32,360 nt of DNA, taken from NCBI GenBank assembly GCA_903859415.1, contig CAIOMN010000012.1, forward strand, positions 1 to 32,360. The letters are read 5' to 3'. The notes beneath the pieces are model-generated. The model did not search any database. It had not been told where the DNA came from and saw nothing but the letters and a program-made list of their open reading frames with translations. Shown here piece after piece: positions 2,292 through 21,228 of the stretch (its first letter is position 1; each line of letters opens with the position of its first letter). The position numbers were made by a program, and so were the translations under genes. The stretch is from an uncultured Methylococcaceae bacterium (GTDB lineage Bacteria > Pseudomonadota > Gammaproteobacteria > Methylococcales > Methylomonadaceae).

Positions 2292-3521
2292 TTATAACTC
2301 TAATTTCTCAAGACGTAAAGATAACCTTTCAAAGAGATAATGCACGTTTTTATACAAATCATAATCAGCCAGGACTGTTTGTCTTCCTGCCTTACCCAAT
2401 TGTTGACGTAAAACTGGATCACCCTCTAATAGCCTAATGGCGTTGGTTAATCCATCAGTATCGGATGCAGGAACTAGCAACCCATTCTGCCCACTTAAAA
2501 TAAGCTCTGGAACACCTGTTATAGCAGTTGTTATACACGGTATTTCCATTGCCATTGCCTCCATTAAAACCACTGGCAAACCTTCCGCAAAGCTGGGTAA
2601 AACAAAAATATCGGCAACTTTATAATAATCGAGAATATGGTCCTGATCGACTGCACCAGTAAAAGTTACCTGTAAACCAATACCTAATAATTCAGCATAT
2701 TCACGTAAGCTTTGCTCGTCCGGCCCCATTCCTACAAATGTTAGGGTGCAAAAAACACCTTCATTTTTTAATTTAGTTAATGATTCCAGCAAAATGGCTT
2801 GTCCTTTGGCTGAAGTCAATCGACCGACACAGAGTAAATTACATATCTCATCTTCTTTAGCCTTAGTTGATGGCTTAAATCTCTCTGGATCTACACCCAA
2901 ACGACAGATATCAAACTTTGGCCAAGCCTGTACAGGAGACAACTTCATCACTTGGCTACGCGCATAATGACTAATACAAAAAACAAAATCAGCCGTTAAT
3001 ATTTTTTCAGGTAAATTATAGCCAGGCGCATCATAAAACTCGTCTGGTCCATGCACTGTAAATGAAAAACTGTAACCAAACACAGTTTTAACCAGCATAC
3101 CAACCGATGCAGCTGGCGTCGCAAAATGTACATGCAAATGGGTTATGTTTTGTGACCGCATCCAATGACCTAAAAGCATCGCTTCTACTAAATAAAAAAC
3201 ATGGTATAGCAAACGCTTAATATCCCAACCACCTAACTTAACGACATGCTTTAAACCTTTTATGAATCCAACCGGATTCAGAAACAATGTCTTCCCTAAA
3301 GCAATTAGAGCTTTTAAAAGACCTTGTGACTTAACATAAAACGTGTGTTCAGCCTCATTTCTTTCGGTATCGGTTAGCTTCTCAAATGATCGATCAGGTA
3401 AATTGATTGAAGCAACAACAATTGAAACGCCAAATTGACGAAGTTGCTGGACTTCACGCAAAATAAAGGTATGAGAGTAAGCTGGATATTGGCTTACTAA
3501 ATATGCGATGCTTTGAGTCAT
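2292..3521 (-). CDS. Family 4 glycosyltransferase (WcaL/EpsF-like)
   Basis: A 409-residue GT-B fold retaining glycosyltransferase. The N-terminal Rossmann domain opens with IAYLVSQYPAYSHTFILRE (residues 5-23), a pattern common in colanic-acid WcaL-like enzymes. The HLHVHFA and HGPDEFYD segments (about 128-164) resemble the acceptor-side cleft. The C-terminal GT4 domain has GRLTSAKG (233-240), with the phosphate-binding Arg and Lys. It also has the EX7E motif, seen as AEGLPVVLMEAM with Glu313 and Glu321. All key residues are present and the length is normal. It overlaps the upstream GT4 by four bases. It probably adds one sugar to the lipid-linked repeat unit; the sugar and linkage cannot be inferred. 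Confidence 0.9.
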   Translation of the reverse strand: MTQSIAYLVSQYPAYSHTFILREVQQLRQFGVSIVVASINLPDRSFEKLTDTERNEAEHTFYVKSQGLLKALIALGKTLFLNPVGFIKGLKHVVKLGGWDIKRLLYHVFYLVEAMLLGHWMRSQNITHLHVHFATPAASVGMLVKTVFGYSFSFTVHGPDEFYDAPGYNLPEKILTADFVFCISHYARSQVMKLSPVQAWPKFDICRLGVDPERFKPSTKAKEDEICNLLCVGRLTSAKGQAILLESLTKLKNEGVFCTLTFVGMGPDEQSLREYAELLGIGLQVTFTGAVDQDHILDYYKVADIFVLPSFAEGLPVVLMEAMAMEIPCITTAITGVPELILSGQNGLLVPASDTDGLTNAIRLLEGDPVLRQQLGKAGRQTVLADYDLYKNVHYLFERLSLRLEKLEL

Positions 3522-4783
3522 GATTTTGACCCGATTAATTCACCATAAAACTCGATAGCTCTAGCAATCTTAGCATCCCAGCTATAATTATTTTCAACCC
3601 GCAGGCGACCTTCTTCTCCGCGAACTTTCCAGACTTCCGGCTGTTGTCGCACACTTTCAAATTGTTTAATCAACCCTTGTACAACATCGGCTTTGCCCGT
3701 TGCCGGTAACTTAACACCTACACCTTCGTCCACAATTTCAGCCGGACCGCCAAAATCAATTGCGATAACTGGACGACCGACTGCCATTGCTTCCAGTAAT
3801 ACTGCACCACCCGATTCACGTACTGACGGGAGACAAAACACATGCGCTTGTTGCATAATTTTACCGATCTCATTTAGCGGCAAATTACCCGTAAACTCAA
3901 CCTTTTCACTTATCCCGAATTCAGCCGTCAATGTTTCTAAATTAACTCGCTCTGGCCCTTCACCAACGATTGTTAGTTGGACCGGAAAATTTACTGCTTT
4001 TAATGCTTCCAATAACATCGAAACGCCTTTGAAGGGCAGTAAACGCCCAACAAATACAATATGTAAAGGATTACTATCCGAAGGAGCAGATGGCCATTCC
4101 TGAAATTTAAATAAATTTAAATCAACACCATTCTCAAGTAAAAATCGGCACTTCGACCGATTGCCTGCCGATATTCCCGCCAAAGTAGATCTTGTTGCCG
4201 TTAGAATTAAAGCGGCATTTCGTGTAGATCCAATCAAAAAATCAATGACTCGACCAAAATTGCGAAGGGGGTATAACCATTTTGACTCAGCCTTCATAAT
4301 TTCGGGAAATGTTGTAGGAGAAGCCATTGCGCCATTCCAAGGACCAAGCACTAATGGTATTCCCAATTTATATAACCTTGTAGCAGCCATGGGTGATACA
4401 GGCGTTACCTCATGCACGACATCCCAATCTTGCCCACTCTTTATCAACTGACTAGCTTTTCGAACGGCAAGCCAGTCATAAACAAAAAAATCAAGTGAGG
4501 CAACAAGGAACCGTGGGTGCTCACTCCGAGGAAAACAAAAAGAGGCAAAACGATATAATGGCCCAGCAAACCACTCAGTATCAATAAAAATGACAGACGA
4601 GTCCTCTACAGGAATACCTGACGCTTCCAATGCTTCTCGATTACGAATATGAGTCAATAACGTAATTTGACAAACCTTACTTAATCGCTGATACCACTCC
4701 CAACCAATTTGAGATACTGAACCCATCCCTGAACCACATTGATAAGCGGATAACAATACACGAATGTTTTTAGTTTTTTTCAT
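3518..4783 (-). CDS. Family 4 glycosyltransferase
   Basis: A 421-residue GT-B enzyme. The N-terminal half holds VLLSAYQCGSGMGS (residues 9-22), a glycine-rich loop of GT4 proteins, and HEVTPVSPMA (124-133). The C-terminal half holds FVGRLLPFKG (244-253) and the EX7E motif RESGGAVLLEAM with Glu323 and Glu331. It lacks membrane helices and should work peripherally on an undecaprenyl-linked acceptor. Its ATG is 11 bases after the stop of the truncated GT fragment upstream, and its own stop overlaps the next start. It is therefore the first intact gene of this operon. The ribosome site is weak (GGGT), so translation may depend on coupling to the upstream fragment. Confidence 0.9.
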   Translation of the reverse strand: MKKTKNIRVLLSAYQCGSGMGSVSQIGWEWYQRLSKVCQITLLTHIRNREALEASGIPVEDSSVIFIDTEWFAGPLYRFASFCFPRSEHPRFLVASLDFFVYDWLAVRKASQLIKSGQDWDVVHEVTPVSPMAATRLYKLGIPLVLGPWNGAMASPTTFPEIMKAESKWLYPLRNFGRVIDFLIGSTRNAALILTATRSTLAGISAGNRSKCRFLLENGVDLNLFKFQEWPSAPSDSNPLHIVFVGRLLPFKGVSMLLEALKAVNFPVQLTIVGEGPERVNLETLTAEFGISEKVEFTGNLPLNEIGKIMQQAHVFCLPSVRESGGAVLLEAMAVGRPVIAIDFGGPAEIVDEGVGVKLPATGKADVVQGLIKQFESVRQQPEVWKVRGEEGRLRVENNYSWDAKIARAIEFYGELIGSKS

Positions 4784-4794
4784 GATATACCCAA

Positions 4795-5313
4795 TTAGCT
4801 ACTATGAACAGGAACGCCGTTTGATTGCAGACCGTCGCAAAGTTTAAAAGCAGCCACTCTTTTTCTTTCTTTTTCCCATATATAGAGAAACCTACGTAAT
4901 TTTACGATTGGGTTCGAGGTACTTAATGCAGCTATTTGATATCGAGTCTCGGGTATATATTCAATGATATAGACACATTTTATGTTTTCTGTTTTACATA
5001 ACCTGCTAAGATGAAGTTGATTATCAGAGTCGCCAGACGCAAGCACAATAGAAACGCCCTGCAAATGAGTTGCTGTTATTAATTCCTTTTCAATTAAAGT
5101 AATACACTTAAACGGGAGTTCAATATAACTTATAGTTATGACGCCAAATTCAGGAAGTGGTTCGGTGCTTAATGAGATAATGCAAGACACGTCACCAGGC
5201 CATTTTTCAACATACAATAACATCCCATTATAAAATTTGAGATCGAAGATTAATAAGTTACCCGATTTCCATACAGGTACAGAGGGTGTAATTGCTAAAT
5301 GAAATGACCGCAT
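4795..5313 (-). pseudogene. Truncated family 4 glycosyltransferase, N-terminal domain only
   Basis: About 172 residues that match only the N-terminal acceptor half of a GT4-type enzyme. Recognisable stretches are AITPSVPVWKSGN, FYNGMLLYVEKWPGD, LASGDSDNQ, VYIIEYIPETRYQI and LCDGLQSNGVPV. This pattern belongs to a roughly 400-residue glycosyltransferase family. The reading frame stops right where the linker to the donor-binding domain would begin, and the next gene starts 11 bases later, so the donor half is missing. I chose the ATG at 5313 because AAGGA lies 10 bases upstream; a TTG at 5343 is also open. A split enzyme whose other half lies elsewhere is possible, but a deletion scar is simpler. 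It may survive as a translated leader for the operon. Confidence 0.72.
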
Positions 5314-5641
5314 ATAGTGTGGGTCCTTAATTAAGGTTATCAAACCGAATATACAAATACTTTCAAACGCGTCTATAATTTTACCTGAGTTACTTAATTA
5401 GTTAGCCATTTAAAATAGTTTTCAGACACGTCTATATTGGTTAAATGTATCACGGAGTTTTTGGGTTTACAAGAAAGTATAGATTTACTTTGCTGAACTT
5501 TTAATAATGCTCTGAATAGCTTACCAAGGTATGGCTATTTTATATTCTTTGTGAAACAATTAACTAACAAAAATTATAATTAATAACCCCACAAAGATCT
5601 GTACTCACCCAGTGGAGATCTACAGTAATAAGGAGAGCTTG
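5314..5641. other. Divergent promoter region between the GT operon and the 5642 gene
   Basis: This AT-rich 328-base gap separates the minus-strand GT operon from the plus-strand gene at 5642. The plus side carries a perfect TATAAT at 5575-5580. The only -35-like hexamer, TTGTGA at 5549-5554, sits 20 bases away, which is too far for a strong sigma-70 promoter. The strong AAGGAG ribosome site is at 5630-5635. On the minus side I see no convincing -35/-10 pair. No terminator, repeat or RNA gene was recognised. Confidence 0.5.
5575..5580 (+). promoter_or_regulatory. Candidate -10 box for the 5642 gene
   Basis: A consensus TATAAT lies about 62 bases upstream of the ATG at 5642, implying a leader of about 55 bases. 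The matching -35 is poor, so an activator or another sigma factor may be needed. Confidence 0.35.
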
Positions 5642-6616
5642 ATGAATCTATACAGTGAAATATCACCTCGTCGTAAGTTGTATTGCATCCTCGGAGCCAA
5701 CTCTCTGCCTTATGCCGAGAAGGCGTTCGAGAGCTTGGCTGCGCGCTGCCTTGATAACTTCGATCTGACTTTAATCACTGATACAGCAGCCGATAAATCC
5801 ATACTGACCGAGGCTATGGAAAAGCTGCAAATTCCATCACAAAACAGTTGGCGGGTATGCTCACAGGCCGAAGCCGATGAACGTGCGTTGACTTTGCTGG
5901 CACCTTATCCGCATCTAGCTTCTTTTCGCTTCGGTCATCCATGCTGGCGCAAGATCACTGATCCGATTTTATTCGCACAGCCCGATGAGGAAATGGTCAT
6001 CCTCGACCCAGACCTCTATTTCCCGAATCATTTCCGTTTTGAACCCACACCTGCCAGTGGCCTGCTGTTAATGCACCAGCCTCCTAGTTGCTTGCTGCCG
6101 CACGAAGTGGTTGTTCGAGCTTACGACAATGGAATTCGTTTGGCTCATCATACCGATATCGGCGTGGCACAATCATGCAACAACCTCGATCTTGAATGGT
6201 TAGACTGGTTAGTGGGTCAACTTGGCGGTACAAGTTTGCCACGCTCTATGCACGTTGAATCCATCGTTTGGGCTGCCTTGGCGATGCGTGTCGGTGGTGG
6301 TTATCTGAATCCTGAACATTGGCATTGCTGGCGCAATTCGCAGAGGAATCGTTTGCTTGTTCGCTTTGGTGTATCTGGCCGCACGATATTGCGAACCGAA
6401 CGGTTTAACACAATGAAATGCTTCCACGGCGGGGGAATTGCCAAATGGTGGATACCTGAAGCTGTTAATGCAGGTGATTTTCCGGAACCGGTGGAAGTGT
6501 TAGCTTCGCAAGCACCCATCCCGTTCGAGGAACTTACACGTAAAACATACGAAAAATCCCAACTCATTAAAAACCTAGCACAGCGTATCGGTTACTATAA
6601 GCTTGTTAAGCCTTAA
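5642..6616 (+). CDS. DPD-motif protein, probable glycosyltransferase
   Basis: A soluble protein of 324 residues with no membrane segment. It opens with a Rossmann-like strand and loop (KLYCILGANSLPYAEKAFESL, split by a helix) and LTLITDTAAD. It then carries EEMVILDPDLYF with a DxD-type motif at residues 122-124, as in GT-A nucleotide-sugar transferases such as GT8. A His in CFHGGGIAKWW near the C-terminus is placed like the C-terminal metal ligand of GT8 enzymes. I assign glycosyltransferase from this motif order and the neighbourhood, not from a recognised family. The ATG at 5642 is chosen for its AGGAG six bases upstream; a GTG at 5612 has no ribosome site. It stands alone on the plus strand and has higher G+C than its flanks. 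Confidence 0.6.
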   Translation: MNLYSEISPRRKLYCILGANSLPYAEKAFESLAARCLDNFDLTLITDTAADKSILTEAMEKLQIPSQNSWRVCSQAEADERALTLLAPYPHLASFRFGHPCWRKITDPILFAQPDEEMVILDPDLYFPNHFRFEPTPASGLLLMHQPPSCLLPHEVVVRAYDNGIRLAHHTDIGVAQSCNNLDLEWLDWLVGQLGGTSLPRSMHVESIVWAALAMRVGGGYLNPEHWHCWRNSQRNRLLVRFGVSGRTILRTERFNTMKCFHGGGIAKWWIPEAVNAGDFPEPVEVLASQAPIPFEELTRKTYEKSQLIKNLAQRIGYYKLVKP

Positions 6617-6735
6617 AGCTAAGCTCATAATTATTGCATTTTTTCAGATATTGTTCATTTCTTCTTATTACTGTCATGTCTGAGTATTTCTATAATAATA
6701 TATTGCGCAACCAAAAATATGTAACTTCTCATTAA

Positions 6736-6767
6736 TTGCAGGTAAACACTAAAAATCAGGTTAAAAT
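6736..6767 (+). promoter_or_regulatory. Weak candidate promoter for the IS66 transposase
   Basis: TTGCAG at 6736-6741 and TAAAAT at 6762-6767 are separated by 20 bases, longer than the ideal 17. The -10 ends only six bases before the ATG, so transcription would be nearly leaderless. There is no ribosome site ahead of the ATG. Confidence 0.2.
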
Positions 6768-6773
6768 AGCCTA

Positions 6774-8402
6774 ATGGATACTATCAATCCGCAATTACCG
6801 AAAATCAGTAGCGAAGAGCGCACACCTTTAGTCAATGTGCTATTGGAAATTATTGCGTGGCAACAAATACGGATTGACAAGCTGGAACAGGAAATACTTA
6901 AGCTCAAGGTTGAAACCACAAAGCCCAACATAAAACCCAGCAAAATGGATCAGGACCACCCTGTCAAAGGCGGTGCAAAAAATAGCGATGACAGTGACAA
7001 GTCCAAAAAGAATAAAGGACCGAAACGCAATAAAACGGAGCACATTAAGATTGATGTCACGCTCAACATCTACCCTGATATTATTCCAGAAGGTTCAATT
7101 CATAAGGGATTTCGGGATGTGATTATTCAAGATATTAAGCTTGAAACCTTTCATACCTGCTATCGCTTAGCCCAATACGAGACATTCGATGGCAGCTATG
7201 TGTCAGGACAACTGTCCGATAGCCTCAACGGTTGCCACTTTGGCAGTGACCTGATTAGTTTTATCCTCTATCAATATCATCATCAACATGTCACCCAGCC
7301 GCCGCTGCTGTTGAAACAACTGCTGGATTTGGGTATTGATATCTCCAGCAGTGGGTTGAGCCAGTTTATCACCGATGATTTGGATATGTTCCATGATGAA
7401 AAGAATAAATTACTTCAAGTCGGATTGTCTGTATCAGCCTATGTGCAAACCGATGACACCGGGGCGCGTCATGATGGTAAGAACTGCTATTGCACCCTTA
7501 TCGGCAATGAATTGTTTGCCTGGTTTAGTAGCACGAAAAGCAAAAGTCGCATTAACTTCCTGAGTTGTCCAGGCCAAGGTAGCTACTATTTTTATGTGCT
7601 GAATGCCGGTGCCTTCGCATATATGGAAGAACAAAAACTGGCCGTTGCATTGTTAGCACGTCTTGAGCTTGAGGGTGGCGTTGTGAGTAACCTACCGCTG
7701 GCAGAACCTGCCGATAAAGCTGTACGGATCGAAACCTCTCTTGTTTGGAATAAATGGCTGAATCAGCAGGGCATCAAAGCCAAGCGGTACCGGAGAACAC
7801 TCACCGAAGGCGCTTTAATGGGTGGCCTATTAGCTCAAGGCACTCCCACTACCCTGAGTATTATCAGCGATGATGCCGGACAGTTTAACGTCTTTGACCA
7901 TGCCTTGTGCTGGATTCATGCCGAACGCATTATTAATCGGCTCATTCCTTTAAATCCAGAACATGTTAAAGCCGTTGACGACACCTGCGAACAACCCTGG
8001 CAGATTTACCGCGAACTAAAAACCTACAAACTCGATCCAACGGCAATCCAGGCTGAAGACATCAAATCTCGCTTCAAGACGATGGGCAACAATCAGCACG
8101 AACTGCTTCGAGTACTCGATAAACCTTATTTACCGCTCCACAACAACCTGAGCGAACGCGATCTTCGGGATTACGTTAAAAAACAAAAAATAAGCAGCAG
8201 CATACGAAGTGAGGCCGGACGAAGGTACCGCTATACCTTTGCCAACTTAAAGAAGACTTGCCTAGAACACAAGATTTCGTTTTGGCATTATCTTAAGGAC
8301 AGGCTAAGTGGCACAAACAACATTCAACCTCTACCCAATTTGAAACCTGATGAATTTGATATGCGGTACAAATTTGGCAATATTTCAAGACTGGGAGTTT
8401 AA
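6774..8402 (+). CDS. IS66-family transposase (single-gene type)
   Basis: A 542-residue DDE transposase of the IS66 type. The order is an N-terminal coiled segment (residues 20-50), a Lys-rich linker (75-90), a conserved middle domain, then the catalytic core. The first acid is in VQTDDTGARH (227/228), the second in ISDDAGQF (366/367), followed by CWIHAER (379-385). The final Glu461 is in NNLSERDLRDY. The protein looks intact. The accessory tnpA and tnpB genes of classical IS66 elements are absent, as in the ISBst12-type subgroup. I could not find convincing terminal inverted repeats or a target duplication. The stop is followed within 12 bases by the next gene and its ribosome site, so the right end appears lost or inside that gene. 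Confidence 0.9.
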   Translation: MDTINPQLPKISSEERTPLVNVLLEIIAWQQIRIDKLEQEILKLKVETTKPNIKPSKMDQDHPVKGGAKNSDDSDKSKKNKGPKRNKTEHIKIDVTLNIYPDIIPEGSIHKGFRDVIIQDIKLETFHTCYRLAQYETFDGSYVSGQLSDSLNGCHFGSDLISFILYQYHHQHVTQPPLLLKQLLDLGIDISSSGLSQFITDDLDMFHDEKNKLLQVGLSVSAYVQTDDTGARHDGKNCYCTLIGNELFAWFSSTKSKSRINFLSCPGQGSYYFYVLNAGAFAYMEEQKLAVALLARLELEGGVVSNLPLAEPADKAVRIETSLVWNKWLNQQGIKAKRYRRTLTEGALMGGLLAQGTPTTLSIISDDAGQFNVFDHALCWIHAERIINRLIPLNPEHVKAVDDTCEQPWQIYRELKTYKLDPTAIQAEDIKSRFKTMGNNQHELLRVLDKPYLPLHNNLSERDLRDYVKKQKISSSIRSEAGRRYRYTFANLKKTCLEHKISFWHYLKDRLSGTNNIQPLPNLKPDEFDMRYKFGNISRLGV

Positions 8403-8414
8403 GGAAACGAATAT

Positions 8415-9971
8415 ATGAATATTACCCGATTAGAAAAAATATTTTATATTACGCTAATTATTTGCATCCAATTTTTAGTAATTTCACCTATTTTCTCAAA
8501 TGATAAAATAATTTTTTATTCATCATTTACAGATGATTTTTTCTACTATATTAAAATTGCAAAAAACATCGCGCTGGGTGAAGGATCAACTTTTAATGGT
8601 ATAGTTCAAACAAATGGTTATCATCCATTATGGCTTATAATTCTTACTATTTTTGTAAAGCTGGCAACCCTCCTAAACATAGAGATTCTACTCTTCATTA
8701 AGAAAATAATTGCTTTAATTATCTTTTTATCTTTTTATCTTTTTTATAAATATTCAACTGAATATTTAACAAATGTTTTTTGGCGTGTATTTTTTGTTTT
8801 ATTTATATACATCTGGTACGGAGTTTCTTCAAGTTTCGGCATGGAAACAATAATAACCATTCCGTTGTTTTTAATATTTATACTTTCGTATTTAAAAAAT
8901 GTTAACCCTTACTATATTGGTTTGTTAGTATCTTTAACTACATTATCAAGATTAGATTCATTTGTTATTTTTTTAGTTTTTTTTGGTGTTGAAAGTTTAT
9001 ATACGAAGTTTGATTTTAAACGCATAGCAAAAATAGGCTTGGGCTTTTTGCCTGTTGCAGCATATTTACTATCAAATATTTATTATTTTGATAGTTTAAT
9101 GCCTGTTAGTGGAATGGCTAAAAGTGTTTTAAAAATTACAGCATTACATGCTGCAACATTTATAACTCTTTTCGAATTCTATTTTAAATTCAATTATGTT
9201 TATTTTGGCATATTTATCTATTCAATATTCAACTTATATAAATTCAAACAATTTGAAAATACAATTAAAATTTTTTATATTACTGCTTTAGCTAGTGTAC
9301 CTGTTTATTATTTACAAAACAGTTTACGAAGTGACTGGGCGCTTTGGTTTTGGTACCTTTACCCATTAATACTTTCCACGATAATGCTTGCAATCCCTTT
9401 AAATACAATCTTTACCTCTTATAAATACTTCGATTTAAAAAATAAACACCTACAGATTTTGCAGCAATCATTTCTCATATTTGCATTAAGCATCATCTCT
9501 TTATACACATTCAAAAAACTGAAAAATGTAAGTTATGATCCTATTATGGTTGCAGGGATAAAAATTCTAGACTTTGAAAAAAACAACCCTGGAATATATG
9601 CTATGGGAGATAGAGCTGGTTTTGTTGGATATTTATTAAGTAGTCCTTTAATCCAACTTGAAGGTCTGGTTATGGATAGTAACTACCTTAACTTGCTTGA
9701 AAAAAATAGAAATATAGAAGAGATTTTAAATTATTATAATACAACATACTATATTGGCACTGGACTAAGAAAAGATGAAAATAACTGTTTTATTGTAATT
9801 GAACCAACTCAATCTAATGGTTTTTCTAGAAGAATAGAATCTCGGCTATGTTGGGAAGAGGTTTTACATTTTACTGTCAGAGACAAGATCCAAGGCGATA
9901 CAACAACACATATTCTGAAGCGTAGAAATCTAATAACTTCGCCAAGCAATCCGCCAATCAATGGGTGGTAA
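8415..9971 (+). CDS. GT-C-type multi-pass membrane glycosyltransferase (ArnT/PMT-like)
   Basis: A 518-residue polytopic membrane protein with about ten hydrophobic segments. The first periplasmic loop holds FTDDFFYYIKIAKNIALGEG, with Asp40/Asp41 where GT-C enzymes place the catalytic acid. TNGYHPLW follows at 66-73, a signature of polyprenyl-phosphate-sugar-using transferases. It would add a sugar, carried on a lipid phosphate, to the glycan on the periplasmic side. It has a good ribosome site (AAGGAA, 8 bases). Codon use is extremely A/T-rich compared with the genes around it, which suggests transfer. The last 14 or so residues probably come from read-through into the truncated transposase, because that frame is open from about 9937. 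Confidence 0.8.
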   Translation: MNITRLEKIFYITLIICIQFLVISPIFSNDKIIFYSSFTDDFFYYIKIAKNIALGEGSTFNGIVQTNGYHPLWLIILTIFVKLATLLNIEILLFIKKIIALIIFLSFYLFYKYSTEYLTNVFWRVFFVLFIYIWYGVSSSFGMETIITIPLFLIFILSYLKNVNPYYIGLLVSLTTLSRLDSFVIFLVFFGVESLYTKFDFKRIAKIGLGFLPVAAYLLSNIYYFDSLMPVSGMAKSVLKITALHAATFITLFEFYFKFNYVYFGIFIYSIFNLYKFKQFENTIKIFYITALASVPVYYLQNSLRSDWALWFWYLYPLILSTIMLAIPLNTIFTSYKYFDLKNKHLQILQQSFLIFALSIISLYTFKKLKNVSYDPIMVAGIKILDFEKNNPGIYAMGDRAGFVGYLLSSPLIQLEGLVMDSNYLNLLEKNRNIEEILNYYNTTYYIGTGLRKDENNCFIVIEPTQSNGFSRRIESRLCWEEVLHFTVRDKIQGDTTTHILKRRNLITSPSNPPINGW

Positions 9972-10650
9972 AGTAAGCCATACTGAAGTATTTATCAATC
10001 TGCGCAGTGGACGACAAGCTGAAGATGGCATCAACATGGGGCTTACGCTGATTGAAGAGTTAAATCACATGCAGACGCGCAAAGCGGTAACTCAGGTAAG
10101 ACATGCTTTACCAGATTTGTTCCATTATTTCGATATCGCCAATCAGGTCGTCACCGAGTTTGGCGAGTTAGGCATCGATGAGTTCAGTTTGAAGGCTTGC
10201 AGTGCGTGGCAATGGGGAAAAGCGGCGAGGAAAGCTAAAAAGAGCGAACGGAAAAAGATCGCCCAGGACCAAGAGCAAGAGCAAGAGCAAGAGCAATTCT
10301 GCCTGGACATCGCCATAGGCTTGCAACAAGAAACTGAGGAAGAAGACCTGATGACTCAGCACGCAGTTTATTCCAGGTTGGACAAAATCGTTCAGAGTTC
10401 GGCTTTGGTAGAATGTATCAATTCAATTCTACGACCCTACTTGAATACCTGCAAAAACCAGATCACCCAGGAAATGCTCAATCTGATTATGCATTATCAT
10501 AACCATCGGCGTTATCGGGATGGTGTTAGAAAAGGTAAGACGCCCATGGAAATTCTGACGGGAACAGAGCAAATCCAGGATTGGCTTGAGATTCGGCTGG
10601 ATATCATCAGAGAGAAAAAGCCAGAACTACTACTGATTTCTGAGCGCTAA
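9937..10650 (+). pseudogene. C-terminal remnant of a DDE transposase/integrase
   Basis: The frame is open from 9937, upstream of the first ATG at 9961, and overlaps the end of the GT-C gene. It has no ribosome site, so this is the tail of a longer gene whose 5' part is gone. The end of the protein carries SALVECINSILRPYL, then NLIMHYHNHRRY and RKGKTPMEILTG. This is the standard ending of integrase-core transposases, with the Glu of the DDE triad in ALVE. The two catalytic Asp residues are missing with the N-terminal part. In the middle is a run of Glu-Gln pairs from a GAGCAA repeat at about 10270-10296. The exact IS family is not recognised. Confidence 0.7.
10270..10296 (+). repeat. GAGCAA hexanucleotide tandem repeat
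   Basis: About four and a half copies of GAGCAA encode (EQ)n within the transposase remnant. Each unit is six bases, so gain or loss keeps the frame. It is a typical slippage tract and is probably neutral here. Confidence 0.85.
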
Positions 10651-15580: not shown

Positions 15581-16979
15581 ATTCAACTCCAGCCATAGGT
15601 ACACCGAAACCCAGCAGCCAGCGCATATATATCAGTATCCCAAGTATCCCCAAAAACATTAAAGTTGTTTTTATATCCTGACTAATATTCGATAAGCCTT
15701 CACGAGAAACACCAAAAGTGATTGCAAAGTAAAATGGTACATCGTTCATAGCTACTATAATAATTGCTCCCAATACCCCAAAATAGTTAAACCCAAGCGG
15801 TATGCATATTACAGTAAAAAGAAATCGAAAAAAATTGCCAAAAGCTGCATAGTTAGGCTTTCCAATGGCAAAAAGAGCTTGCTCGCTGGTTTGAGAAAGC
15901 ATATTTGGCCATATCCCAATCGCCAGCAAAGGTAACATCCAACTAGCCTGCTCATAACGTTTGTCATAAAGAAGCAAAATCAAAATATCACCAAAAGACA
16001 CCAAGACCGCAAGCGCTAACGCCAGGATAATTAATATTTTTTTTCGACTATTAAGTAATTGTTTTCTAAATTCAAGGCGTGGCATATGCGCCAAACGGGA
16101 TAAAGTCGGATATATGATTTTACCACTAAGACCTGAGACAATCTGTCTTGGCACATCTGACAGCGTTAAGGCAATAGAATAAACCCCCAGCATTTCAAGT
16201 GAGAATATTTTAGCCAGGATCACCCGATCAGCCTGACCCGCTAAAAAAGTGAGTATGGTTGAAATAAAGATCCACTTTCCAAAATGAATGAGCTCTTGAG
16301 CCGCTGTTTTATCCCAGTGGAAGCGGTTGAGTTGCCCAGGTATTAAGAAATGACTCCAAATCATACTTATCAAGGCACCCGACAGAACACCTGCAACCAA
16401 AGCCCAAATTGATGGGCTTATCCATGCCCAGGCAATCATGATTGTTAAGGACATTAATTGTGTAATTAACTCCTGTATCACTAACCTTTTTAATGCTAAA
16501 TTTCGATAGCTTGTATACAACGCGGTAGAATTAAACCCGCTAATTATTATAGATATTGCAATCACTGGAATTAACCAGATTAATTGAGGATTTTGGTAAA
16601 GCATAGAGGCTGGATAGGCAAGAACTGCAGCAATTATCCAGATACCAAAACCTCTTATAACCTGGATAGTCCATGCGGAATTAAGAAAGTCTGGATCATT
16701 ACCACGCTTGCTTCGAATAATACTGGTGCCAATTCCAATATCTGAAAACAAACATAATCCCAAAAGAATAACATTGACCAAGGATATCAATCCGAAAAGG
16801 TCAGGAAATAACAGACGGGTCAAAATAAGATTACTGCCAAACCGTAAGGCTTGGCTTAAGCCATAATTTGCTACAGTCCAATAAGCGCCTTGTGTGGCAG
16901 TCTTTTTCAGAGCTTTTAGGTCAGGTTCACCCTCGTCGTGGTTTAAAGACTGAGTGCTGTTAGTTAACTTTTTAGTCAC
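15564..16979 (-). CDS. Wzx-like polysaccharide flippase
   Basis: A 471-residue polytopic protein with about 12 hydrophobic segments, of the MATE/MVF-related polysaccharide flippase group (Polysacc_synt type). It should flip undecaprenyl-pyrophosphate-linked repeat units across the inner membrane. Typical features are the N-terminal amphipathic stretch KKTATQGAYWTVANYGLSQ, the SNLILTRLLFPDLFGL loop, and VIYPTLSRL-like helices after the mid-protein GVYSIALTLSDVPRQI segment. The only start near the first helix is the GTG at 16979, with a weak AGG about 11 bases upstream. Membrane flippase, polymerase and OPX/Wzc proteins in the same window fit a complete Wzx/Wzy-dependent pathway. Its 3' end overlaps the acyltransferase on the other strand. 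Confidence 0.88.
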   Translation of the reverse strand: MTKKLTNSTQSLNHDEGEPDLKALKKTATQGAYWTVANYGLSQALRFGSNLILTRLLFPDLFGLISLVNVILLGLCLFSDIGIGTSIIRSKRGNDPDFLNSAWTIQVIRGFGIWIIAAVLAYPASMLYQNPQLIWLIPVIAISIIISGFNSTALYTSYRNLALKRLVIQELITQLMSLTIMIAWAWISPSIWALVAGVLSGALISMIWSHFLIPGQLNRFHWDKTAAQELIHFGKWIFISTILTFLAGQADRVILAKIFSLEMLGVYSIALTLSDVPRQIVSGLSGKIIYPTLSRLAHMPRLEFRKQLLNSRKKILIILALALAVLVSFGDILILLLYDKRYEQASWMLPLLAIGIWPNMLSQTSEQALFAIGKPNYAAFGNFFRFLFTVICIPLGFNYFGVLGAIIIVAMNDVPFYFAITFGVSREGLSNISQDIKTTLMFLGILGILIYMRWLLGFGVPMAGVEFRFYG

Positions 16980-17345
16980 CGTATTAGTACCTATGGCAGG
17001 TTAATGGATTGTGAACACAATTATTTAATTTTTCTTTATTTTATTTAAAACATCTGCATGTCGATATTAATATTATTAAAACACGCTCCCTGAAAAACTA
17101 CCGCATGCCAATCAGGCACCAGAAAAAATAATGCAAATCCAAGTAGATGACATGTCGGTGCAAGTCTTTAAGCCAAAGTCATTTGTCCATTTGCTACCAT
17201 CAACCCGGGACAAAAATCGAGTACTGTAGATAATGACACTAGATAAAGAAAACGTATGTCCCATACCCTATAAAAAGTATAGCCGGCAATCAGCAATACC
17301 CAATTTTGGTAACGTCCACCACATAGAGAGTAAAAGAGGAGAACA

Positions 17346-17378
17346 ATGGGTAAAAAATGGCAAATGAAAGAGAATTAA
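17346..17378 (+). other. 10-codon mini-ORF with strong ribosome site
   Basis: AGGAG at 17337-17341 precedes ATG 17346 by four bases, and the frame reads MGKKWQMKEN before TAA. It may be the 5' end of a lost gene or a leader peptide. Nothing downstream shows an attenuator. Confidence 0.2.
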
Positions 17379-17606
17379 AAATCATTTAATCAATAAATTC
17401 TTTTGAGTGCCTATTTTGCGTAGTTTATCCTTATAGAGTACAGATAACAAGATACTGAAGAAAACCCAATTATCTAAACTCGCAGAAGGCGTAGCTATAC
17501 GAATAAAGCCCATGTCAGCATTGGCAATGGGCACCAGTCGAGATACCAGAGTGAGTTTGCGGGCGACTTTATTCGCCTTGGCGGGATATTCATTATTTCA
17601 TGCACA

Positions 17607-17933
17607 TTCCTTAAGCGATAGAAATCTCCCCTTTTCCTATCGCTTATGTTCCTTAAGCGACCGGAACCTCCCCTTTTCCTATCGCTTATGTTCCTTAAGC
17701 GACCGGAACATCTCCTTTTCCTATCGCTTATGTTCCTTAAGCGACCGGAACATCTCCTTTTCCTATCGCTTATGTTCCTTAAGCGACCGAAACATCTCCT
17801 TTTCCTATCGCTTATGTTCCTTAAGCGACCGAAACCTCCCTTTTTCCTATCGCTTATGCTCCTTAAGCAACAGGAACCTCCCTTTTTCCTATCGCTTATG
17901 TTCCTTAAGCGACCGGAACCTCCCTTTTTCTAT
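17607..17933. repeat. 42-bp tandem repeat array, 7 full copies plus a partial one
   Basis: Copies start at 17607, 17649, 17691, 17733, 17775, 17817 and 17859, with a partial eighth at 17901. Each begins with TTCCTTAAGCGA (CTCC in copy 7) and ends with CCTATCGCTTATG. Copies 3 and 4 are identical, while the outer copies have diverged most. Across every junction TCGCTTA and TAAGCGA form a 7-bp stem around a 7-base loop; toward copy 1 this extends to 9 bp. In some copies ATGTTCC and GGAACAT form a second stem that competes with the first. The unit is 14 codons, so long open frames appear, but they have no ribosome site and read as low-complexity repeats. Confidence 0.95.
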
Positions 17934-18088
17934 GAGTAGCACCAAAAATAGAACCAACCAAATATTCGTAATTTAAATGCCCCACAAAAACAATTAATGC
18001 AGCAAATAGTCTAACGAAATCAAGATAAGCGGAAATAAATTTGTTCATATTTATTGAAATTTTTAGCCAACTAAAGGTTATTGGAAGC

Positions 18089-18094
18089 TATAAT
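18089..18094 (+). promoter_or_regulatory. Candidate -10 box of the GT25 gene
   Basis: A perfect TATAAT that would start transcription near 18101, giving a leader of about 320 bases before the GT25 ATG. No good -35 hexamer is present at 16-18 bases, so activation may be required. Confidence 0.35.
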
Positions 18095-18157
18095 ACTTTA
18101 TTTTTGGCACACATTAATTAACTGAATCGATTTGACCTAAAGCACAGAAACCATTTA

Positions 18158-18175
18158 ACGGAGCGGTAGCCGTTG
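18158..18175 (+). promoter_or_regulatory. ops/JUMPstart-like leader element
   Basis: AACGG-AGCGGTAG-CCGTT contains GCGGTAGC, the core of the RfaH-recruiting ops element (GGCGGTAGCGT), and is embedded in a 5-bp inverted repeat. It lies about 62 bases after the predicted start site, followed by a T8 run at 18185-18192. Position, strand and the polysaccharide context fit an RfaH- or NusG-paralogue control site. The 8-base core alone could occur by chance. Confidence 0.35.
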
Positions 18176-18421
18176 AAGAGAATGTTTTTTTTCGATGCGG
18201 CCAAAGTCTTTTTTAAAATGTATTTAGTTAAAATATCTTAATTTGCTAATAATAGATAATAAACTAATAAAAATAAATAAAATAATGCATTATTGAAAAC
18301 TCAAAATACAAAACATCAAGAACATATTGTTAATTTAAGCCAATCAAAACGGTACTTATTGTAATAATACTTGCATATCTTTCGATATATTTTTTACAGT
18401 TTTTTAAAAAGGTGTTACCTT

Positions 18422-19186
18422 ATGAGCTTTAATGAAACAGACGTACCCCAAGAAAAAGTTTTTGATGCCTTTCATAGATACTACATCATAAACCTTCCAA
18501 GTCGTTCTGATCGCCGTCAGGCTGTATTATCAGATTTGGCAAGAGCAGGCATCCAGGCCAATGATCCTAAGCTTCGAATTTTCTCTGCCGTACGACCTAA
18601 CGATAAGGGAGATTTTCCAAGTATTGGCGCTCGTGGATGTTATATGAGCCATTTGGGTGTCCTACAGGCGGCTCTTGCTGAAGGCATTGAAAATGTGCTC
18701 ATCATAGAAGATGATCTTGCGTTAGAGCCAGCAGCTTTGCGTCCACAACCTCAATTAGTGGAAGTACTTCGTAGCGGAGACTGGGATTTTGCTTACCTCG
18801 GGCACGTGCAAAACAGCGATACTCCCAATGGACAACCTTGTTGGCAAACCACTGCTCAACCGCTGGTATGCGCACATTTATTAGCCTTCAACAAAAGAGT
18901 ACTACCGGCTCTAGTAAACTATCTAGAAACCTGCCTAGAACGCCCAGAAGGTCATCCTGATGGAGGACCAATGCATGTAGATGGCGCCTACACCATGTTT
19001 CGGAAACGAAATCCAGAAACTAAAACAATCATTTGTATGCCGTCCTTGGGTAACCAGCGCAGTTCCCGTAGTGACATCTATAGCAATCGATGGTTCGACC
19101 GCCTACCTATATTTCGCCAAGCAGTTGGGATGACACGTAACATCATTAACCACATCCGACGGCTACGTCGATTTAGCAAACCATAA
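18422..19186 (+). CDS. Family 25 glycosyltransferase
   Basis: A 254-residue LgtB-like glycosyltransferase of family 25, which usually transfers galactose or glucose onto oligosaccharides. Motifs are YYIINLPSRSDRR (residues 20-32), the GARGCYMSHLGVLQAAL block (69-85) and VLIIEDDLAL (92-101), where the acidic pair marks the metal/donor site. Its length is normal and there is no membrane helix. I chose ATG 18422 because AAAGGTG sits seven bases upstream; a TTG at 18371 would add 17 residues without a ribosome site. It is monocistronic, with a long leader holding the ops-like element, and is followed by a convergent operon. Confidence 0.88.
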   Translation: MSFNETDVPQEKVFDAFHRYYIINLPSRSDRRQAVLSDLARAGIQANDPKLRIFSAVRPNDKGDFPSIGARGCYMSHLGVLQAALAEGIENVLIIEDDLALEPAALRPQPQLVEVLRSGDWDFAYLGHVQNSDTPNGQPCWQTTAQPLVCAHLLAFNKRVLPALVNYLETCLERPEGHPDGGPMHVDGAYTMFRKRNPETKTIICMPSLGNQRSSRSDIYSNRWFDRLPIFRQAVGMTRNIINHIRRLRRFSKP

Positions 19187-19253
19187 AATACACGGATAAA
19201 AACATAGAGATATCATAGATAAAATGACACCTTTCTGATTGAATCCCTTATTA

Positions 19254-20645
19254 CTATATTACCCTCCTAAATTTAAATAGGCGAGTATCGACTGCCGTCT
19301 TAGTTTTGCTATTGCTGTTGCCTTGGTCACCGTCCCAGGTACTGGTTCTTAAATAGGCATCGGATAAACCTGTAATGATAAAAAATACCGTACCACTCTG
19401 ATACATCATAGCAACCGTTGCTGTAGCAATGAAGTACATTAAATAAATTGCCGCCAAAGTAAAGGCGAATGAACTACCTCTTGGCTCAGCGAATGGTTGA
19501 GCCATTCCATGCCTAATCAGTCTTACCATCATAACAAAAAATATTCCTAACAATATAAAAATAGCAATGATGCCATGATTTAAATATACCAGTAAAAAAT
19601 TATTGTCGATAGACTCTGCCCCTGGCACTTGGGGAAAATTCATCAACCCCCAACCAAACCACAGATGTTCAGTTGCAATATCCATATATAGCTCAATCAA
19701 CTCATAACGATAACATGCTGTTTCTTGATTAGGGTCGAGGGCGTTTGCACGCCCAATTGATGCATAATCTAAGAAGGCCACTAAAGCGGGAATACCAACA
19801 ACTATAATTCCTGCTAGAAAAATTGTCATAGCTAAGCGACGATTTTTAAATCGCCCAATAATAACAAAAGTAGCTCCTATAATGCCCGCCAGCCATTGAC
19901 CCTTGCCTAGCGTTGTAAATACCCCGCCAAAAATTATTAAGGTAAAAAGTTCTGCAGGACTGAACCAAGGTACCCAATCTAGTTGTTTGATTTTAACTGG
20001 CCATGCCTCAGACCATTGTAACCACCGTTGAAATCGATAACCTGTAGCCATAATAATTCCGTCTACCAGGCAATGCGCATAAGGCCCACTTGCACGTGCC
20101 AAACCGAAACGATAAGTAGTAATCCATCCACTACCTTGCCCGGGGAAAAATTTAGCGAGTAACATCTGCCACAAATTAACACCCATTTTATTTTCATATA
20201 GGTTACATATAGAAACTACACATAAACACAACACAACGCTCTTGACAAAGTCATAACGTAAATTAAAGGGTTCAACCAAACTTTTTGTAAAAATATAAGG
20301 AAACAACACTGAGGTTAATTGATTAAACATTAAGTTTTGCGCATCCGAGTAACCAAGAGCCAAATACTGAGAGATACCCACTGAAAGCGCATAAACACCA
20401 ACCACAACATCAGTATAACTAAATCGATAACCCGGCTTACCCTTCATTATAAATACTATAAACAATGCCAACGAGGAAGCTTGATTAAAAGTTGGATCTG
20501 GAATCCCTGGCGTTATAGCTTGATAATAGTCAGGTAACAACAGAACAATGGGGATATAAGCATTTATAAAGGCTTTCTGCACGGACTGGCTTTGTGCGAC
20601 GTAAAAAGTCCATATCCCCGCTAAATATACAATGAACGATAACAT
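19254..20645 (-). CDS. Wzy-like O-antigen polymerase/ligase family membrane protein
   Basis: A 463-residue membrane protein with about 11 or 12 hydrophobic segments and a large periplasmic loop, of the O-antigen ligase/polymerase (Wzy_C-like) group. In the second half LGKGQWLAGIIGATFVIIGRF corresponds to the conserved S/G-x-G-x-W-L region of these proteins. The loop around YRYELIELYMDIATEHLWFGWGL matches the typical [IL]...P..G.G.G loop position. It would join repeat units on the periplasmic side, though a WaaL-type ligase role cannot be excluded. It starts four bases after the stop of the acetyltransferase gene and is the last cistron of the wza-like operon. Confidence 0.82.
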   Translation of the reverse strand: MLSFIVYLAGIWTFYVAQSQSVQKAFINAYIPIVLLLPDYYQAITPGIPDPTFNQASSLALFIVFIMKGKPGYRFSYTDVVVGVYALSVGISQYLALGYSDAQNLMFNQLTSVLFPYIFTKSLVEPFNLRYDFVKSVVLCLCVVSICNLYENKMGVNLWQMLLAKFFPGQGSGWITTYRFGLARASGPYAHCLVDGIIMATGYRFQRWLQWSEAWPVKIKQLDWVPWFSPAELFTLIIFGGVFTTLGKGQWLAGIIGATFVIIGRFKNRRLAMTIFLAGIIVVGIPALVAFLDYASIGRANALDPNQETACYRYELIELYMDIATEHLWFGWGLMNFPQVPGAESIDNNFLLVYLNHGIIAIFILLGIFFVMMVRLIRHGMAQPFAEPRGSSFAFTLAAIYLMYFIATATVAMMYQSGTVFFIITGLSDAYLRTSTWDGDQGNSNSKTKTAVDTRLFKFRRVI

Positions 20646-20649
20646 CTGC

Positions 20650-21228
20650 TTAAGATCTAACTACTCGTGCAGGAATACCTACAGCTACCGCACCTGCGGG
20701 TATGTTTTTGGTAACAACAGCGTTGGCACCGATAACAGCACCTTCCCCAATAGAAACCCCACCTAAAATAGTGACTCCACGCCCAATCCATGCATTTCGA
20801 CCAATATGAATTGGCCTGCCAAGATGACCACTATGCCGCACTGAACTACCGGGTATTACGCGATGATTAGCATCTCTCACACTGGAGTATTCACCCATCA
20901 TTACCCCATCCTCCAGAATAATTTCAGCAAAAGCCACTAGATGCACGCCACGTGACAAAACCACATCATTGCCAATTTTAATGCGACCTTCCTCTTGTGT
21001 TTCCAAATAAAGATCACGGTATAAATACAGGTTTTCACCTAACCCTATTCGCCGCGTACCGTGCAGCTCCGGCATGCTTAATACGACTACGGAAGGATGC
21101 AATGATCCACCTAGTGCGTTATTCAATCTAGCATTTGCCCATAATCGACGGAGAGCATCCAGTCGATTGATCACTAGTGCAAATGGATTTAATGCTTTAA
21201 CCAGGAACTTCTTAATGACATAGCTCAT
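20650..21228 (-). CDS. Left-handed beta-helix (hexapeptide) acetyltransferase
   Basis: A 192-residue WbbJ/CapG-like O-acetyltransferase using acetyl-CoA. An N-terminal helix region (residues 1-40) is followed by hexapeptide repeats (IGLGEN, IKIGNDVVLS, IILEDGVMMGEYS). The catalytic His lies in DANHRVIPG, followed by PIHIGRNAWIGRGVTILGGVSIGEGAVIGA, read in pieces, and the closing VAVGIPARVVRS. It lacks membrane segments and should act on a sugar or nucleotide sugar in the cytoplasm. Start and stop of neighbouring genes overlap (ATGA with the GT2 gene), and the next gene follows after four bases. This is a tight operon, and the protein probably acetylates the repeat unit. Confidence 0.9.
   Translation of the reverse strand: MSYVIKKFLVKALNPFALVINRLDALRRLWANARLNNALGGSLHPSVVVLSMPELHGTRRIGLGENLYLYRDLYLETQEEGRIKIGNDVVLSRGVHLVAFAEIILEDGVMMGEYSSVRDANHRVIPGSSVRHSGHLGRPIHIGRNAWIGRGVTILGGVSIGEGAVIGANAVVTKNIPAGAVAVGIPARVVRS

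Follow-up and report, generated by a model that had tools for sequence, protein, structure and literature searches.

A 42-bp palindromic minisatellite near a GT25 gene in a Methylococcaceae polysaccharide locus is probably a relic left by deletions

The tandem array at 17607-17930 of the window (the whole stretch of 32,360 nucleotides that was analysed, which is the complete contig C12 of a 280-contig draft genome, G000) is probably an intergenic minisatellite that grew out of an imperfect, REP-like palindrome, is mostly near-neutral and was left as a relic by deletions; a role for the neighbouring GT25 gene is not supported. It is a clear example of a regulatory role that was suggested by position alone and then contradicted by the genomes of relatives, since the array neared GT25 by deletion.

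The array was described by Tandem Repeats Finder with a period of 42, 7.7 copies, 93% matches, 0% indels and a score of 522. On the plus strand, it consists of seven full 42-bp units (17607-17900; for example, TTCCTTAAGCGACCGGAACCTCCCCTTTTCCTATCGCTTATG) and an eighth unit (17901-17930) that is broken off mid-unit after approximately 30 bases, at about 17930, where it is joined to the relic of an acyltransferase gene; here, the alignment with the relative G007 (L040) jumps from 2323 to 3472. The count of seven full copies and one partial copy made in the sequence-only reading was thus borne out, and so was its observation of two identical adjacent copies, units 3 and 4 (17691-17774), which have the same sequence throughout. 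Unit 7 of the window carries GCAACAGG, seen elsewhere in the terminal unit of G007, and this shared variant suggests exchange between copies. Head-to-tail repetition of a unit of 10-100 bp is the layout of a minisatellite, or VNTR, locus; the repeats of a CRISPR are separated by unique spacers, whereas the present units abut and spacers are absent. A separate short repeat, 4.5 copies of CAAGAG, was observed at 10270-10296 inside the ORF 9961-10650, where it encodes a QEQEQEQE stretch.

Orthologous arrays at this site (locus A) were found in two relatives, both Methylococcaceae MAGs: G007 (contig C2) has 8 full units and a degenerate terminal unit, and G017 (C255) has 6 units and a terminal degenerate unit. 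In both relatives, the site lies between an acyltransferase gene and an MBOAT gene. The array fills this gap in G007, with the stop codon of the acyltransferase gene (Acyl_transf_3) approximately 105 bp from the terminal unit, the MBOAT start 222 bp away and both genes on the minus strand. Beyond the first acyltransferase gene, G007 carries a second one and then, on the opposite strand, GT25, which is approximately 2.7 kb from the array. The window aligned with L040 of G007 in three blocks, namely, 17061-17930 with 1453-2323 (92%), 17932-18119 with 3472-3673 (82%) and 18257-21104 with 4903-7749 (88%). Compared with G007, the window therefore lacks the body of the MBOAT gene, the array end along with most of the first acyltransferase gene, and the second acyltransferase gene. 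What is left on the minus strand is a 5' remnant of the first acyltransferase gene (17932-18054; Acyl_transf_3 in G007), the body of which is deleted; a 5' remnant of the MBOAT gene, likewise without its body, at about 17061-17386 (17386 being taken from the G007 alignment); and the ancestral MBOAT upstream region from the gene start to the array (17387-17606).

Both G007 and G017 match the stretch 17380-17606 at 93% identity, and a search of 35 genomes with the whole of it matched the orthologues only, plus G019 for the first 120 bp. The latter genome also has this MBOAT gene, and the diverged flank upstream of it could be aligned until 3 bp short of the array start (score 67; the maximum of 1000 shuffles was 32), but there is no array at this flank. 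Beyond it, the place of the array, the acyltransferases and GT25 is occupied by a different gene on the opposite strand (L047 3560-4372) whose match to GT25 is below threshold (Pfam, 21.1 bits; cut-off 24).

In the window, the GT25-family glycosyltransferase is encoded by an open frame of 254 aa on the plus strand (18422-19186; Pfam PF01755, E 2.8e-9). The 165 bp upstream of it (18257-18421, plus strand) fall in the block that matches G007 at 88%, a genome in which the array is distant from GT25; the alignment of G017 over this region is partial. The array is close to GT25 in the window because approximately 1.15 kb comprising the array end and the first acyltransferase gene, as well as the second acyltransferase gene, was deleted. 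It had been proposed that the array lay about 155 bases upstream of a predicted GT25 promoter and that its copy number might tune GT25 expression. No promoter was found in a scan of 16900-18500, which returned 4 sigma-70-like sites against 5.4 expected from shuffles and none on the plus strand between the array and GT25. Tuning of GT25 expression was also unsupported, as two oppositely transcribed acyltransferase genes separate the array from GT25 in G007. A GT25 promoter element was therefore rejected, both by synteny and by promoter-scan sites being fewer than in shuffles.

Identity was uneven along this locus. The GT25 stretches of G007 and G017 (L040 5057-5933 and L041 1-877) are 99.9% identical over 877 bp, compared with 95.6% in the adjoining 5 kb, and this segment may have been exchanged recently between the two genomes. 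Similarly, 15813-17060 of the window is 97.7% identical to L041 of G017 (6741-8000), compared with approximately 93% on the array side. The polysaccharide locus appears to be a mosaic. Because such jumps in identity between genomes indicate that the locus recombines, branch order was not used in the analysis.

The left edge of the array coincides with a 22-bp dispersed repeat, TTATTTCATGNNCATTCCTTAA (17593-17614, plus strand), which extends over the first 8 bases of unit 1. With up to 2 mismatches, this repeat was found in 23 of the 35 genomes of the genus, including 70 copies in G020, 35 in G015 and 33 in G016, and also in G005 and others; the reversed control gave 1 match across all 35 genomes. 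Among 19 stretches fetched from other genomes, 8 of which had been preselected for showing a pair, 14 contained the repeat as an inverted pair (up to 4 mismatches) whose starts are separated by 84-109 bp, around differing cores. Such pairs look like the ends of small MITE- or REPIN-like elements that would form a family of this genus. Since TTATTTCATGNNCATTCCTTAA ends in the eight bases with which the array unit starts, the array probably began at the end of one of these elements.

A second array (locus B) was found on G000 contig C212 and G017 contig C26. Its related unit, TGGCTTAAGCGATAGGAATATCCCCTTTACCGGTCGCTTATG with variants, is about 77-81% like that of locus A (BLAST). The array directly adjoins the 3' end of an Rpn-family (rpn) gene, an assignment based on a 98-aa C-terminal piece in G007 that matches NCBIfam TIGR01784 (E 3e-10) at 40.2 bits, below the cut-off of 52.1; at the extreme edge of G000 C212, the last residues and the stop codon of rpn are present. 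On the other side, the array of G000 ends 85 bp before an arsR-type regulator gene, of which only a 5' stretch is present in G007 and G017, as judged by eye. In 2 of 2 loci, the array is bracketed by a co-directional gene pair, to which its orientation is the same each time, and this counts against the favoured reading. G007 carries a lone 44-bp unit at locus B (C128). The first half of this unit resembles the first unit of G017 and the last half the last unit (by eye), and contraction of a longer array is as good a reading as an ancestral seed.

In G000, G007 and G017, respectively, the unit counts are 7 plus the cut unit, 8 and 6 at locus A and 6 (plus one degenerate), 1 and 8 at locus B. 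Copy number at one locus differs, as at a VNTR, although between draft assemblies of three species and not between strains. The copy-number change that had been anticipated is thus supported between species at both loci; nearly all of the genomes are drafts, and arrays of approximately 300 bp, being longer than reads, may be collapsed in these counts.

The resemblance of the two arrays raises the question of whether both are copies of one mobile element with defined ends that moved between loci. On one side, the arrays end in GGTGTTAA or a near form at both loci. The same-side end CTTAAGCRAYMGGTGTTAAY occurs exactly at G007 C2, G007 C128 and G017 C26, and nowhere else among the matches listed, and with 2 mismatches at G017 C255 and G000 C212; the left edges share TC[AG]TTATT[TA]CATG (P 0.01 for 20 bp and 0.08 for 60 bp), and the left edge of array A is the end of a dispersed element. 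However, there were no more copies at E 0.05 in 237 genomes, no target duplication was identified, the left-edge match is weak, the right end at locus B is partly the rpn stop codon, and looser matches to CTTAAGCRAYMGGTGTTAAY (3 mismatches) occurred in 35 of 35 genomes. Movement of a cassette is therefore very unlikely.

Two further features of the surroundings were observed. At the last junction of array B in G007 (L050 11730-11760; L081 4640-4676), TCGCTTAAGCCACTTAAGCGA replaces the TCGCTTATGTGGCTTAAGCGA of the inner junctions, that is, by eye, the loop is reversed, as an inversion between the arms would give. A third locus (G000 C53, 8759-9137; G019 C223; G017 C38 and C183; G007 C6) contains a copy, 84-85% identical, of the stretch beside array A, and also a 102-bp piece that flanks array B in G007 (98-100% identical); in G000 and G019, both pieces fall within 400 bp.

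The distribution of the unit is narrow. With a covariance model built from 35 units (E up to 0.05, strict filters), 3 of 237 genomes of the family matched, all of them from one genus. When E values up to 1 were admitted in the genus, 9 of 35 genomes matched, and the best value beyond G000, G007 and G017 was 0.078. An exact-pattern scan of GTDB 220 contigs returned 3 contigs from the two relatives; the window's own genome may be absent from that set. Scattering over many unrelated sites, which the sequence-only reading had named as a sign of inert repeat DNA, was not observed, as arrays occur at two loci in each of 3 of the 35 genomes of the genus. No matches to the unit were found in viral contigs, phages or plasmids, and there were none to Rfam in the window at the gathering threshold; origins of these kinds were rejected. 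One weak look-alike resembling the junction hairpin was found in G017 (C270, 11915-11968; L166; BLAST E 9.6e-5). It consists of CCTATCGCTTATGTCC and, after it, an arm that has diverged, and it may be an isolated, degraded relative, perhaps what is left of a single unit at another site in the genome. Those at G003 C221 and G000 C259, which were among the single look-alikes with E values of 0.08-1, were read as unrelated hairpins, and ATCGCTTA-12-TAAGCGAT at G006 C370, which is within a reading frame (by eye), was taken as chance.

Each unit carries 7-bp inverted arms, TAAGCGA ... TCGCTTA, which extend to 13 bp in some copies. The main arms within the unit, columns 6-18 and 28-40, form a perfect 13-bp stem (TAAGCGATAGGAA/TTCCTATCGCTTA) in the commonest unit of G007 and are paired at 10 to 12 of 13 positions in each of the seven units of the window. 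When the same stem test was applied to 5000 shuffled tandem 42-mers (loop 3-12), a perfect stem of at least 7 bp was found in 44 and one of at least 11 bp in none; the longest perfect stem was 7 bp in the commonest unit type of the window and 13 bp in the G007 unit. Two hairpins per unit had been described previously, one across junctions and one within units. The former, TCGCTTA-TGTTCCT-TAAGCGA with a 7-base loop, is present at 6 of 7 window junctions, the junction into unit 7 having TAAGCAA. The latter, ATGTTCC-10-GGAACAT, does occur twice in the window (17688 and 17730), but it spans junctions when the units are cut at 17607, and none of the four further arrays that were tested contains it (locus A of G007 and G017; locus B of G000 and G017). 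Although these 7-bp stems were seen correctly, the main intra-unit arms had been overlooked. Moreover, any head-to-tail palindrome pairs in two ways, within the unit and across the junction, so that the two competing hairpins are a by-product of a tandem palindrome and not independent evidence of function.

The drift of the units was studied in a gap-free alignment (A1) of 35 units (29 distinct) from five arrays, all 42 bp long and in register. Seven irregular units or part-units were left out of this alignment and of the arm test: the cut unit of the window, the terminal units of G007 A, G017 A, G000 B and G017 B, the first degenerate unit of G000 B and the 44-bp unit of G007 B. The arms are altered in several of the seven, so that arm conservation is a property of the regular copies only. 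When substitutions were counted on a minimum spanning tree, the 14 columns of the 7-bp arms accounted for 4 of 61 events, compared with 20.3 expected (P=7e-7); their share was 1 of 23 events for locus A alone and 3 of 37 for locus B alone. Variation in columns 13-14 and 32-33, where pairing would lengthen the stem, is mostly uncompensated. The half-sites are kept and the long hairpin is not. Neutrality alone does not explain this conservation, unless imperfect palindromes cannot be amplified.

One alternative is an RNA structure located towards the 3' end of the transcript of the upstream gene, where it would act as a terminator, an mRNA stabiliser or an attenuator between the co-directional genes. 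A gene reads into the array at both loci, the 341-nt minus strand folds at a z of -8.9, and the stem pairs in 87.5% of cells, compared with 33-48% for slid versions; in the terminal degenerate unit of G007, where 9 of 13 pairs are formed, pairs 11-35 and 13-33 are compensated. However, strong folding is automatic in a tandem palindrome, and no covariation was detected across the 29 distinct units, both the paired cells and the covariation score being below the shuffle means, for which reason a long hairpin maintained by covariation was rejected. On the gene-sense strand, 262 of 273 cells (96%) are paired at locus A but 139 of 182 (76%) at locus B, and on the other strand the values are 90% and 85%, so that neither strand is favoured at both loci. 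Terminator-like sites were absent from the array, and one (1.1 expected) lies just to its left (17572-17585). An RNA role is accordingly considered unlikely. The arm pattern is better explained by a DNA half-site, or by a copying process that needs short inverted arms, than by a conserved RNA helix.

A DNA site could be the target of a putative regulator or nucleoid protein that binds the TAAGCGA half-sites. With 42 bp corresponding to four helical turns, equivalent half-sites would lie on one face of the helix, and the array would have served cooperative control of MBOAT (locus A) and arsR (locus B) in ancestors. The strong conservation of the half-sites while the pair columns 13-14 and 32-33 drift suits a DNA site over a hairpin, the 42-bp spacing is strict, and MBOAT in G007 and arsR in G000 each have an array upstream, at 222 bp and 85 bp, respectively. 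Against this, amplification of whole units preserves any period, there are two array loci only, one of them a single unit in G007, the array in the window has outlived its MBOAT gene, and G007 and G017 retain arsR at locus B only as a relic. Protein binding by the array therefore seems fairly improbable. Little credence is given to a stronger version, in which the array would be a clade-specific cassette with defined ends, its 7-bp half-sites selected as a phased multi-copy DNA-binding platform between co-directional genes and the output of the downstream gene set by the number of units.

Translation of the repeat, as a 14-aa peptide repeat in the ORF 17512-17976, is extremely improbable. The frame is open at locus A in all three genomes, and 14 of 23 changes are synonymous there, compared with 8.6 expected (P=0.015 in one of six frames; one minus-strand frame gave 0.038, and both loci together gave 0.046). 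However, the excess is insignificant after six frames are allowed for, the same frame at locus B gave P=0.61, the ATG of the ORF is ACG in both relatives, and the best Pfam match, DUF6416, scored 25.2 against a cut-off of 27.1. A coding repeat, for which a conserved frame and a synonymous excess would be expected, was therefore rejected, the nominal P value being confined to locus A and the start codon unconserved.

The minisatellite of the favoured reading would have originated in the ancestor of a small Methylococcaceae clade, beside one copy of TTATTTCATGNNCATTCCTTAA in the acyltransferase-MBOAT gap of the polysaccharide locus. Units would then have been gained and lost in whole 42-bp steps, likeliest by hairpin replication slippage and unequal exchange between copies. 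In the window, deletions took most of both flanking genes, and one of them ended inside the array, leaving the relic near GT25. We infer that the array is mostly near-neutral because of its distribution, its survival beside dead genes and its differing unit numbers. Any present function would be weak, and any ancestral one would have concerned the acyltransferase-MBOAT gap. The two loci offer a natural series of 1, 6, 6, 7+, 8 and 8 units in which it can be asked why the arms persist while the rest of the unit drifts, the alternatives being selection on a site and a copying mechanism that requires the hairpin.

Among the papers listed, no title or opening lines of an abstract were found to concern this repeat, which does not prove that it is absent from the literature. 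Bacterial VNTR, or minisatellite, loci serve MLVA typing. The present array resembles them in its whole-unit copy-number differences at a locus, and it differs in that its unit is palindromic, with the arms as the most conserved part. The unit also has the small palindrome of a REP, for which a stem of 5-13 bp is typical (7 near-invariant pairs here, and up to 13). The unpaired GTAG or CGTC tag at one foot was found in 0 of 35 units on either strand, junctions included, and the many genome-dispersed copies of a REP have their counterpart here in two loci per genome, in 3 of 35 genomes, and one weak look-alike. A REPIN/RAYT system combines two inverted REPs with a RAYT gene; the present unit has no such paired build, although TTATTTCATGNNCATTCCTTAA at its left edge does occur as inverted pairs.

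Tandem clusters of palindromes with flanking DNA that vary between strains are already known, as described in three papers (PMC2613905, PMC3116915, PMC3733652). SMAG arrays of Stenotrophomonas maltophilia are described as strain-variable tandem GTAG palindromes with flanking DNA, with 50-bp repeats at one locus; as in the present array, a palindrome and its flank are reiterated head to tail at given loci with variable repeat number (in SMAG, between strains), whereas the present unit has neither the GTAG tag nor an abundant dispersed single-unit family (PMC2613905). In Thauera sp. MZ1T, GTAG-1 REP arrays flank EPS genes, and an effect on expression is supposed in that study; palindrome arrays adjoin exopolysaccharide genes in both cases, but the tag is different, and here the relatives speak against a role for the neighbouring GT25 (PMC3733652). 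The tandem REPIN clusters of Pseudomonas fluorescens SBW25 are described as ordered near-identical palindromic elements with flanks, a description that also applies to the present array, although its unit is not an inverted REP pair and has no dispersed population (PMC3116915). Because the array is like these tandem palindrome clusters but differs from REPs in two features, the tag and the dispersal, it was classed as a palindromic VNTR.
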